NCBI GenBank assembly: GCA_022316685.1 | Contig: JAKJHU010000388.1 | Coordinates: forward strand, 62,001 to 126,000 | Reading direction: 5' to 3' | Length of the DNA: 64,000 nucleotides | DNA from: Progne subis subis | Lineage: Eukaryota > Chordata > Aves > Passeriformes > Hirundinidae | In this document: positions 38,933 through 43,525 of the stretch, piece by piece | How positions within the stretch are numbered: the stretch's first letter is position 1 | Layout of the letters: each line of letters opens with the position of its first letter | Made by a program: the position numbers and the translations under genes | Notes under the pieces: generated by a model | The model's input: only the letters and a program-made list of their open reading frames with translations | What the model was told of the DNA's origin: nothing | Database searches by the model: none

Positions 38933-39973
38933 ATGGAATGCGATTTTGCTGCCGCATTGAAGTTATTTATTATTATACTCTCTGAGAGAGGAAAAACAGT
39001 AGCAGAAAAAGTACTGCAAAAGCTGATTAACTGGGCACGGGGAAATGGACATTTAACAACCTCCCGGCACTGCGAAGTCGGGGGAGGTGCCGCGGGGCCC
39101 CTGCCGTGCCCTCCCGCCACCTCCGGCGTCCCGGCACCATTGCTGGCTGACGCCCGGCTCGCCGCTCCCGGCCCGCGGACCATCCCCGTCGCCCGAGGGC
39201 CACCGCCCCTGCCACCCTGCAGCAACAGGCAGGACGAGGAGGAAGCAGCCCCCGGGAGTCCGCGCCACCGCCACCGGGGCCGGGGCCGAGGCCGCCGCTC
39301 CCAGCGCCGCCGCTCCCACAACGCATGCACCGACTGCCCCCCCCCCCCTTTCTCGGCTGTGCCCGAAGAGACACCGGTTGACCAAGAGAGGGGAACCGGT
39401 GACCCCTGCTGTCGACCACCTTCCCCCGACAATGTTCCGCTGCCGGACGAATTAGAGGATGATGGAGCAGTGCTTCCCCCTGGCAGAACCCACGACTGAT
39501 TTAAAAGAACGGACTGAGCAAATTCAGGCCGTGATGCAGCGCCTGAATGAGCAAGTGCAAGCAGCAGCTAAGCTGCTGCTGGATAAAGCCCAAGAACTAT
39601 CTACAATAAATGCTAAAAATCAGGAGGAGCCAACATCGTTTAGCTCCCAGTTAACTCCAATGCAACAATTGCTAGAACAAACTGCACAAAGCAGTCCCAA
39701 GGCAACACCTTTGCCTGCTCCACCTGTGACTCGATGGTTCGGAATTATATGTGATGTTATACTAGAAGGACAGTGGGAACCCGCAGGACACGTGGCATGT
39801 CTTGTAGCGCGTCCTGTCGTGTTCAGAGATGGCAATCCTGTGTGTGAGCAGCATGAATGGAAAATCTTGCAATAGGCAAAAAAATACAGTAAAAGAGCAC
39901 AGCTTGAAATCTGAAAAGTGCTCGAACAATGTTAGATTGGATTCATACTGTAGATATCATTTCTCCAGCTGGG
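38933..39973 (+). pseudogene. gag: gag fragment (matrix to early capsid), deleted and frameshifted (ERV5a)
   Basis: ATG at 38933 starts a matrix beginning MECDFAAALKLF. After LTT near 39060 it departs from the ERV5b matrix and enters a GC-rich proline/arginine-rich linker. The frame then changes near 39460 to a glutamine-rich helical segment and start-of-capsid sequence (WFGIICDVILEGQWEPAGH) up to 39875. Gag-like sequence continues with stops to about 39973, where it meets CEPT1. Matrix lacks its C-terminal half and capsid its major homology region. Confidence 0.75.
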
Positions 39974-41513
39974 ATTGACCCCAATCTGATCACCATCATC
40001 AAACTGTTAATAATATATTTACAACTCTGTCATTAGTATGTTACTGCTCAACAGCTTCAAAGGCAGGCACCTTCCTGGACATTCATTGTTTGTGCCTGTG
40101 GCATTCCAGTCCCTGGATGTTACAGATGGAAAACAAGCAAGAAGAACAAATAGCAGCACTCCGTTAAGAGAGCTTTTTGATCATAGCTGTGGTTCATTGT
40201 CCACAGTCTTTGTGGTTTTAGAAACTTGTATGGCTGTGCAGCTGTACACCAACCCTGATTGGATGTTTTTCTGCTGTTTTGCTGTGACATTCATGTTTTA
40301 CTGCGTGCACTGACAGACGTATGTCTCAGGAACGCTGCGCTTTGGCATGATTGATGTGACTAAAATACAAATCTTCATAATAATCATGCATTTGCTAGCA
40401 GTGATTGAAAGACCACCTTTTTAGCAATCTTTGATTCCAAGACTGAACATTCAGGTGAAAATACTCCCAGCTCTTTGTACTGTAGCAGGAACCATATTCT
40501 CCTGTACAAACTGGAGTTGGCAAAAATAGATCCACTTTAGCAGGAACAAGTGTCCTCTCACCTTTTATTCATATTAGCTCCGTGATTGCCTTGGCTACAA
40601 TGATCTACAAGAAATCTGCTGTGCAGCTCTTTGAGAGGCACCCCTGACTCTACATCCTGACTTTTAGCTTTGTGTCTGCCAAGATCACAAATCAACTGGT
40701 GGTTGCCCACGTGACCAAAAGTGAGATGTATTTATATAACACAGCATTCATAGGCCCAGCCTTGCTGTGCCTTGACCAGTGTTTTAACAGCTTTATTGAT
40801 AAGTATATTGTCCTCTGGATTGCCCTGATCCTGTCCCTGTTTAACCTGCTCCGATACTGTGTCAGCGTGTACAACCAGAATTGCTGCCCACCTGCACATC
40901 CACGTGTTCCGCATCAAGGGCTGCCCCATGCCCTCAAACCATCACTAGGGATGGGAGCTGCCACAGAGGAATGGAAAAAGAAGTCAGGTTTCTACAGGAA
41001 TGGATGAAGACTTGTCAGAGACAAATGCTAAAAGCAGATGAGAACAAAGTAATTTATAATAATCAATGTTCTATAACTATTCTTCTTTGCTATCAGTAAC
41101 ACTCCTGACTAGTCTCCTGCCTGAGAGAGTGAATTCCGAGTTCACCCTAGTCAACTTTCCATGCAGTCAACTCTGTTCGTTCCAACTCTGGAAAAGCATG
41201 CAGGAGACAAATGCTGTCTTTGTAATTACCTCCATTTTAGATTACTCTCTATATAGTGAATAGATCCCCACCAACTGGAGTTTCTAATGCAGTATAATTA
41301 CAGCTGCAATCTGACTTGCTTTTAATTTTAATATTTCATCATCTCTTAGTGAAATACTTGTTTAGTGTCCACTTGGAATTTATTTACTAACGACTTGAGT
41401 TGGTAAAAACACAGAGATATCTTACTAAGTTGTGTGGCTGCAGCAGCTGCCAAGTAAGAGCCAAGCTGGGGTGGTTTTCACTCGTGCATTGCTGACAAAG
41501 CGGTTTCATGCTG
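39974..41513 (+). pseudogene. CEPT1: CEPT1 retrocopy (choline/ethanolamine phosphotransferase 1), intronless, with 3' UTR
   Basis: Translated in shifting frames, this gives the conserved core of CEPT1, an ER/nuclear-membrane enzyme of phosphatidylcholine and phosphatidylethanolamine synthesis. Landmarks are NLITII near 39990, the CDP-alcohol phosphotransferase motif beginning DGKQARRTNSS (near 40130), YTNPDWMFFCCFAVTFMFYC, FSCTN, KSAVQLFE, SAKITN and GPALL, ending SNHH-stop at 40946-40948. The catalytic motif has lost its glycine (to arginine) and last aspartate (to glycine). Several stops and a short deletion are present. No introns interrupt it, so it was copied from mRNA. 3' UTR-like sequence follows to about 41513, with no poly(A) tail. 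The N-terminal quarter is missing. The match is from memory of the vertebrate protein; CHPT1 fits less well. Confidence 0.88.
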
Positions 41514-41760
41514 AGCAGGGTCACAGTAAGCCTTCAGCACGCAGTGAACCCCGCAAGCCCTCTGAAGATAAAAAGCCAGATGGTCAGCTCTGGAGAGGAT
41601 AAGAGGAACACTTCTGGCCAGAGCAGCTGATCTCAAATTCGTCCCAGACTGGCAGATCTCCAAGGGCCCTGGAATCCATCACCCTGAAACCTGCTGGTCA
41701 GCGATCAGGACACCTCTGAGGCGAATTCGACAACAGCTGCACCCAAGGCTTTGAGCTTTG
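41514..41760 (+). repeat. Retroviral leader segment homologous to ERV3 leader, ending at a splice junction
   Basis: Closely similar to 22095-22326 from GGGTCACAGT to GAGCTTTG. Homology stops exactly at the ERV3 splice donor position; the next bases here are CATCTGGACC, not GTAAGA. This reads as the 5' exon of a spliced subgenomic RNA. Confidence 0.85.
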
Positions 41761-41788
41761 CATCTGGACCACAATGGATACCGAGTAA

Positions 41789-42325
41789 ATGGACTCGGCC
41801 AGCAAGGAAAAAAAAGAAGGAAGAAGAGCACGGATCATCAAGTTCTTGCTGAGACAGGTGGTGGTTGAGGCCGCTGGTGAACAACGCTCTCCTGACCCAG
41901 ACTGGGTTGTAGCATGCATTTTTGATCACCAAGGCCCCTTGGGATCGCTGGAACTTTCCCAGGACTTGCATGAGGGGCAAGAAAAAGAGTGTCCTCAGTA
42001 TCAGGAAATAATAGTTATAGAAGTGAGCTGCAGAGTTTGTGGTGCTCAATTTGAGAGAGAGACCCCAAAGCTTTGGCGTAAGGGTGGTTTGTGTGACCAT
42101 TGCTACAGTGGTACCCTTGGTGCCTTTTATCAAGCAGCACAGGTAGCTTTGAGAATACCTAACCCTGTTCCTGACGATTTTGGTGGAGTAGCGGATTGGG
42201 GATTTGCGCAGACAGTGTGGGCCATTAAGAGAGGGATGTGGCAGGTCCGCATGGTAAGACGTTCTCGCGTGTTGCGTGCTTTTTGCTCATGGTATCAACA
42301 AGCGTTGCAGGATCTTCTCAGCTAG
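41789..42325 (+). CDS. 178-codon ORF of unknown function with CxxC-X17-CxxC motif, before env
   Basis: I do not recognise this protein. The ATG at 41789 follows a five-codon upstream ORF in the exon joined to the leader. The N-terminus is basic (KEKKEGRRAR). C81, C84, C102 and C105 form two CxxC pairs 17 residues apart, a spacing seen in zinc-binding folds, flanked by W- and acidic-rich segments, with a basic C-terminus (RMVRRSRVLR). The 3' end overlaps the env signal-peptide region in another frame. ERV2 and ERV4 have nothing equivalent between pol and env. It is uninterrupted although the env beside it is full of stops. It may be an accessory gene of an ERV3-like virus, or a captured host fragment; I cannot tell which. 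Confidence 0.6.
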   Translation: MDSASKEKKEGRRARIIKFLLRQVVVEAAGEQRSPDPDWVVACIFDHQGPLGSLELSQDLHEGQEKECPQYQEIIVIEVSCRVCGAQFERETPKLWRKGGLCDHCYSGTLGAFYQAAQVALRIPNPVPDDFGGVADWGFAQTVWAIKRGMWQVRMVRRSRVLRAFCSWYQQALQDLLS

Positions 42326-43525
42326 CTCATCAATTTTCTAAGAGAACTAATGTATGAGTGACATTTGCCAAAACGACTGGAACGGATTCTATTTGCCTTA
42401 GCCTGGCCAATCCCCAAGACCCATTCAGAACTTGTTTGATAGGAACACCCCTTTGGAGCCCTCATAAATTTAACGGTTATGTGAAAAATGAGACAATGCT
42501 GAATTTTACTGTGGGAAACGCCACGGTGTGGACATCAGGTTTCACAGCTGCCCAGGCTGATGGAGGCTGGCAGCGTAAAATTATAGAGCAACTTGATGAT
42601 ACACTTACTTCACCACCTGAAGAATTAGACCTCCTTGAATGTATGAATGCCAGCTCTACAAATAGAAGTGAGGTAGGTTGGGTGTCCTTTTAGCCCCCCA
42701 CAGAGCAGAGTCTAAATATACATAGCCAGAAATGGGCTGCAATAAATTCAGCTTGACTATCTGGTAGCAGTGTACACCAACAACTTTATTCCAAATGTAA
42801 TTTGACTGGCAAACCGGCGCGATGCCTTCCACCAGGAACATTTTTAATATGTGGGGACCACGCTTGGAATGGAGTCCCAGCCAGCCCACATGGGGGCCCA
42901 TGCTATTTAGGGAAGCTTGCCCTGTTTCACCCTAACATAACCGCATTGATGACTTTTGCTAAAGTCACTCGGAGAAAACGTGCCATATATGAGTTGGACT
43001 GTACAGACATAAAAGATCCTAAATTCTAGTCCCAAGCTAGGACAGTGTTAACATCCATGTTTATACCAAGAGCAACAGCTACCCGAGCAATGACCACATT
43101 GAAGCAGATGGCATGCTGGACCAAATCAGAATTGAATGTGACTAGTCAAATTTTGGATGAGCTATCAGCGGATGTTACCAGTGTTAATCATGCTGTTTTA
43201 CAAAACCATGCTGTGATTGATTTTTGCTTTTAGTACATAACCATAGGTGTGAAGAATTTAAAGGAATGTGTTGCATGAACCTGTCAGACCATTCTGGATC
43301 AATTCACAAAAATTGCAATTAATGAAGAACAAATTACATGATTTAAAAGAAAGTAATGATGCATTTAAAGATTAATTAAGTAACCTTAAGATTACAAGAT
43401 AGCTGAAGTTTGTTATTAAACAAGTGTTTGTTATATTATTACTTATATTATTAGGATTATTAGTACTAAGTTGTGTAATGTCATGTATTAAGAATATATT
43501 GTGTGAGACAATATCTAATGCTTAG
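42268..43525 (+). pseudogene. env: env, multiply broken (ERV5a)
   Basis: A signal-peptide-like stretch (ACFLLMVSTSVAG) overlaps the preceding ORF. A TGA at 42355 precedes the SU start (GTDSICLSLANPQDPF), which stops at 42691. SU resumes with FLICGDHAWNGVP and a strong RRKR cleavage site (near 42970-42985), then stops at 43027. TM follows with a heptad segment, a stop at 43231, the CX6CC motif in a shifted frame (near 43255), an anchor helix and tail ending with the TAG at 43523. It is related to the ERV4 Env. At least three stops and one frameshift make it non-functional. Confidence 0.85.

Follow-up and report, generated by a model that had tools for sequence, protein, structure and literature searches.

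The DNA studied here is a stretch of 64,000 nt from the bird Progne subis subis (contig JAKJHU010000388.1, positions 62,001 to 126,000), which is referred to as the window. Its plus strand carries an endogenous retrovirus (ERV) in which an intronless copy of the host gene CEPT1 takes the place of most of gag and of all of pol. The initial annotation had assigned the span 38933-43525 to this element, which proved to be larger and extends from one long terminal repeat (LTR) to the other (37531-43925). As expected for an ERV that has transduced a host gene, viral and host sequence are enclosed together by the LTR pair and a primer-binding site.

The 5′ LTR (37531-37905) has the ends TG...CA and is 97% identical to the 3′ LTR (43550-43925). 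In an alignment that extends 6 bases beyond either LTR end, 369 of 380 aligned bases are equal and 11 differ, corresponding to a Kimura two-parameter distance (K2P) of 0.030. Both LTRs are followed on their 3′ side by TGGCGCCCGAACAGGG (at 37908-37923 behind the 5′ LTR), which we take to be a primer-binding site of the tRNA-Lys type, and the matching LTRs that had been proposed to surround the element are thus confirmed. The 5′ leader (37924-38923) is interrupted at 38012-38761, where a solo LTR from another ERV lies between two copies of GCGGTC.

The gag remnant (38924-39964) comprises the matrix, a proline-rich part and the start of the capsid. It is broken, with an internal deletion beyond ~39072, and was recognised by its swallow relatives and by a second copy at 63576. 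Two gag pieces were delimited, at 38918-39499 and 39459-39875; for the latter (39459-39872), 19 relatives were found among 32 candidates, all of them barn swallow gene models, the best being P0002 (83% identity over 96%). Gag stops at about 39965 and viral DNA resumes at 41517, the viral genes being gone where the host part sits. Pol, already reported as absent, was found neither between these two positions nor elsewhere in the element 37531-43925.

The CEPT1 copy (39965-40948) reaches from about residue 80 to the stop behind SNHH, the first ~80 residues of the protein being missing. At 40513-40878, it shows 88% identity with an isoform of canary CEPT1 across 122 aa (E 7e-71). Searches by tblastn with four CEPT1 proteins revealed more stretches across 39965-40948 in several frames, and the solved CEPT1 chain 8gyw_B also matches the copy (E 1.9e-30). 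Its onset, which the initial annotation had put at about 39974, lies close to 39965, where the window has PAGIDPNLITII and canary has PAWIAPNLITII. Since P-A is encoded by gag as well as by CEPT1 at this join, the break can be placed to within about ten bases only. The two also share the reading frame there, a coincidence with one chance in three that we counted as support.

All six exon junctions (TEQ|AP, SLST|VFVV, HWQ|TYVSG, SL|IPILN, TIA|GTSVL and LVV|AHM), which were deduced from alternative isoforms of canary, swift, godwit, flycatcher and other contigs rather than from host genomic DNA, are fused. Gag upstream of an intronless CEPT1 is thus as originally described. The copy has three in-frame stops and five frame changes. 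About 23 nt, a length estimated from the protein, are missing where host CEPT1 reads NYFGVIFTGGVG, and the presumed catalytic motif has substitutions at a G and at its last D. An open Gag-host fusion frame of the kind known from acute transforming retroviruses is not present, with stops and frame changes on either side of the join. The presumed 3′ untranslated region (UTR) of CEPT1 follows at 40949-41516; it is covered by swallow models to ~41015 and assigned by position alone beyond.

Viral sequence behind the CEPT1 copy

The env remnant which the initial annotation had placed behind CEPT1 was found at 42352-43520, and two further features proved to lie in between. The first (41517-41760) is 87.7% identical to positions 22087-22326 of the window. 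That region begins about 20 nt beyond TGGCGTCCCTGGGTGGG (22049), which we assume to be a primer-binding site of the tRNA-Asn type, and is followed by a gag start at 22350. As it is located between the primer-site-like sequence and the gag start, it represents the 5′ leader of another ERV, for which a gag p24 domain was found with Pfam. A 63-nt stretch before the primer site of this small element (21985-22047) recurs behind its capsid part, at 25683-25745 (98.4% identity). The likeness between the two leaders ends at 22326, at a splice-donor-like site (CTTTG|GTAAGA in the other leader), beyond which the CEPT1-carrying element continues with CATCTGGACCACAATGG.

The second feature is an open frame of 178 codons (41789-42325). 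Among 110 candidates, a set restricted by length, it has a single relative, barn swallow P0001, with 86% identity. P0001 has three CxxC pairs, two of which are retained in the window frame. A stretch in the env frame, which includes a hydrophobic run, overlaps the end of the 178-codon frame. Pfam gave one sub-threshold match only (E 0.067), and none of the solved structures matched up to E 1. Structure prediction reached a mean predicted local distance difference test score (pLDDT) of 53.7 for the swallow relative and 38.2 for the window frame aligned with it, which is too poor for a fold search. A relative of P0001 or of the chimeric barn swallow model P0016 was not confirmed among viral contigs. 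In barn swallow, a gag model (DUI87_27321) and a model of the 178-codon frame (DUI87_27320) have neighbouring locus tags and lie on contigs of equal length, which fits the order from gag to the 178-codon frame in the window. The frame may be an accessory gene of the virus that donated env.

The env remnant contains stops and frame changes; it is broken but clearly of the avian gp85 type. The Pfam domain Avian_gp85 (PF03708) was detected at 42802-43026 with E 1.3e-14 and 54.4 bits, against a cut-off of 32.2, and represents the gp85-type surface protein found in env of alpharetrovirus-like avian ERVs. A search against Rfam at gathering scores gave no match in 37400-44300.

Relatives in barn swallow and neighbouring ERVs

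With the CEPT1 part of P0016 as query, 66 proteins were retrieved from 106 candidates (120 to 381 aa). Fifteen of these are barn swallow gene models with CEPT1 pieces, distributed over nine contigs as distinguished by their lengths. In eight of the 15, CEPT1 is joined to the LTR, the leader or gag of this element, one of these cases being weak. Gag is joined to CEPT1 in P0016, P0050, P0053 and P0063, and the 5′ leader in P0052 and P0055; P0083 has a probable leader-CEPT1 join, based on a weak leader match of ten residues (E 0.094). In P0057, an LTR stretch is joined to CEPT1 (E 1.5e-6), and an integrase of another kind lies upstream. P0053 ends with an env stretch (E 8e-9) and shows the order gag-CEPT1-env.

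The models also share mutations with the window. The peptide at the deletion is common to the window and all four models which read across the site, and a +1 frame insertion near the CEPT1 end is common to four of the five models reaching it. For the comparison with other birds, 12 host rows were taken from the 51 non-swallow matches, both in the alignment table and in the tree. STLA occurs in eight of nine models and NQLV in 12 of 15; the window has both, and they are absent from every one of the 12 host rows that covers the respective column. In the tree, the window and all 15 models form one group (support 94/76), which is placed within birds beside canary CEPT1 (90/76). The motif MYLYD, found in canary and one further contig and lacking in two suboscines, godwit, sunbittern and swift, points to a songbird as the donor of CEPT1. 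The proposal that one of the 15 models represents the host CEPT1 gene was considered and rejected: P0060 and P0062 carry the frame insertion, and P0063 carries gag.

Several observations speak against a common origin of all these copies. Seven of the 15 models show no identified neighbouring part of the element beside CEPT1. The other copies are known as predicted proteins alone, and the gag/CEPT1 join itself is contained in none of them, because introns introduced by the gene predictor bridge the broken parts. P0024 is without the shared insertion frame, and P0060, P0062 and P0063 retain the ancestral K of NKLV. The support values of 94/76 and 90/76 fall under the tool's own mark of 95/80. 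In a tree of gag, chimeric models are intermingled with the others (five changes, no fewer than after shuffling), so that gags may have been exchanged, or the other gags may be followed by CEPT1 that escaped annotation. At the protein level, the occurrence of the same chimera at other loci, which the initial annotation had suggested looking for, is borne out by the 15 models and their shared mutations. As judged from these sequences, there seems to have been one capture, followed by spread of the chimera.

A second copy stands in tandem with the first. The 3′ LTR of the first copy doubles as its 5′ LTR and is followed by a primer-binding site, leader and gag start (43928-44278). Gag resumes at 63576-64000, beyond an ERV (44279-63575) which splits the copy. 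Leader and gag of the two copies diverge more (K2P 0.08-0.13) than the LTRs do (0.03). The matrix part of the second copy is without the deletion of the first, and the first-copy leader lacks, when compared by eye with that of the second, about 27 nt including the splice-donor-like GTGAGA.

The inserted ERV has AATA on either side and 680-bp LTRs that are 99.4% alike, and is young. Barn swallow model P0021 has stretches which, by eye, resemble its frame at 61828-62421. Within it lies an ERV on the minus strand, in which 553 bp are repeated (45126-45678 and 54537-55089, 99.3% identity). Two further minus-strand ERVs, at 11194-19294 and 26319-35466, have LTRs that are 99.1% and 99.3% alike; both contain long open gag and pol frames, and the second has a long open env frame as well. 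Long open pol frames within ERVs of the window have 1211, 969 and 686 codons. The ERVs at 11194-19294 and 26319-35466 are a possible source of helper functions. Oscine birds are described as having more ERVs than other birds (PMC4272516), and the bird W chromosome as ERV-rich (PMC8310711).

Origin of the chimera

With high confidence, we attribute the element to a defective retroviral family which arose once by template movement between viral RNA and spliced songbird CEPT1 mRNA. Capture of spliced CEPT1 mRNA at the expense of pol, as initially put forward, is consistent with all tests made. Retroviruses are described as packaging small amounts of host mRNA and switching templates, with oncogene capture as the classic case (PMC4997597). 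Synthesis would have started at the 3′ LTR, crossed env and the 178-codon frame, and entered the leader of a spliced viral mRNA. Reverse transcription would then have moved into the CEPT1 3′ UTR and continued to about codon 80, before it finally moved to a viral RNA bearing a primer site of the tRNA-Lys type, entering first its gag and then its 5′ leader. Without a pol of its own, the chimera would depend on helper proviruses and have been copied with their enzymes.

For the leader piece in front of the 178-codon frame, the simplest reading, towards which we lean slightly, is that the leader was spliced to a downstream exon and that a subgenomic viral mRNA served as template. A splice acceptor would then be located just before CATCTGGACC in the env donor. 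This reading is weakened by a short patch (ATCT, GGACCAC) that recurs beyond the join in the other leader, on account of which a small deletion could replace splicing. In the complete scenario, three RNAs contributed: CEPT1 mRNA from the host, the genomic RNA of a first virus, and from a second virus a spliced mRNA of the env type, whose leader-exon join would survive at 41760/41761 along with the frame upstream of env. The resulting pol-less parasite would have spread in the songbird germline on helpers, perhaps first aided by a Gag-CEPT1 membrane fusion. We propose this scenario tentatively and regard it as possible at best.

A variant that differs from template movement in the first step only, so that the likelihoods of the two overlap, is read-through. 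A provirus that lay within the CEPT1 gene or ahead of it would have given rise to a chimeric transcript after a DNA deletion, and this transcript would have been packaged, leaving only the 3′ join to template switching. This is the usual model of oncogene capture (PMC4997597), and a deletion would permit a 5′ join inside an exon, as found here. No DNA step is required by the data, and the short P-A coding stretch common to gag and CEPT1 at their join is what would be expected from template switching. Read-through is thus rather unlikely to have been the first step.

Products of long interspersed nuclear elements (LINEs) are often 5′-truncated, as is the CEPT1 copy. If a LINE-made processed pseudogene had landed in a provirus, later copying of the provirus would yield the same family. 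An independent insertion of this kind should show its own target-site duplication and poly(A) tail. The poly(A) tail had been reported as missing, and indeed neither A-runs of at least six nor the signals AATAAA and ATTAAA occur in 40946-41560. The best flanking repeat around CEPT1 is 7 nt long and was equalled or exceeded in 139 of 500 shuffles. No introns are retained either. In addition, the copy sits exactly where the capsid end, nucleocapsid, protease and pol have been lost, and a foreign leader abuts it, which a simple insertion fails to explain. We therefore consider an origin by LINE activity very improbable.

It might also be argued that the Gag-CEPT1 fusion is a working membrane protein, helpful to the virus or retained by the host, as the join keeps the two parts in one frame and copies have spread despite amino acid substitutions. 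Against this stand the loss of the first ~80 residues, the three stops and five frame changes, and the altered residues in what we assume to be the catalytic motif. The deletion and the frame insertion are, moreover, shared with the swallow copies, and the frame was thus broken before or during copying. A working fusion is highly improbable, and with its frame broken the captured CEPT1 is unlikely to function as an enzyme. To judge from the sequence, CEPT1 is most likely a passenger, since its frame was already broken in the ancestor of several copies. Finally, an assembly error that joined an unrelated ERV and CEPT1 is conceivable in a dense ERV nest which is difficult to assemble, and can be practically dismissed since barn swallow models show the same neighbours again, with the same mutations.

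Comparison with known systems

Capture of a host gene in the germline is seldom caught along with later copies of the chimera, and this family provides a natural, datable record of the joining of viral and host mRNA. Its cargo is a lipid-synthesis enzyme, neither a growth nor a receptor gene, and was already broken in the ancestor of several copies. This suggests that it is the RNA (LTRs, leader, packaging) that spreads, and not the cargo. Annotation without masking enters such chimeras as host genes. Among the matches listed in open-licence literature, there was no published description of this CEPT1-carrying ERV.

Acute transforming retroviruses have the layout gag-onc-env and need a helper. 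The initial annotation had pointed to this likeness, which holds for the layout: the element has a gag start, host mRNA that is in frame at the join, and env, and would need a helper. It does not extend to the cargo, which is broken, derives from a phospholipid-synthesis enzyme with improbable residual function, and has been multiplied in the germline. CEPT1 is not known to have a transforming action. Processed pseudogenes made by retroviruses, reportedly described by Linial in 1987 (cited in PMC4997597), are said to result from reverse transcription of host mRNA by the retroviral enzyme. The CEPT1 copy differs from these in that the host part stayed within an LTR-flanked element and was copied again.

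The nearest published kind that we found is represented by two crocodilian ERVs with captured host mRNA, CrocERV31 (nectin3) and CrocERV29 (KIT-ligand) (PMC4299795). Like the CEPT1 family, these are germline ERV lineages that carry spliced host mRNA and occur in several copies. Their host frames are reported to be intact and subject to purifying selection, and it is env that has given way to nectin3. In the window, most of gag and the whole of pol have given way to a broken enzyme gene, with a second viral leader behind it. A third template, the leader of a second virus, has probably contributed to the CEPT1 family. In summary, transduction of host genes is a known kind of event, and it is the cargo, its position and the anatomy of the element that are unusual here.

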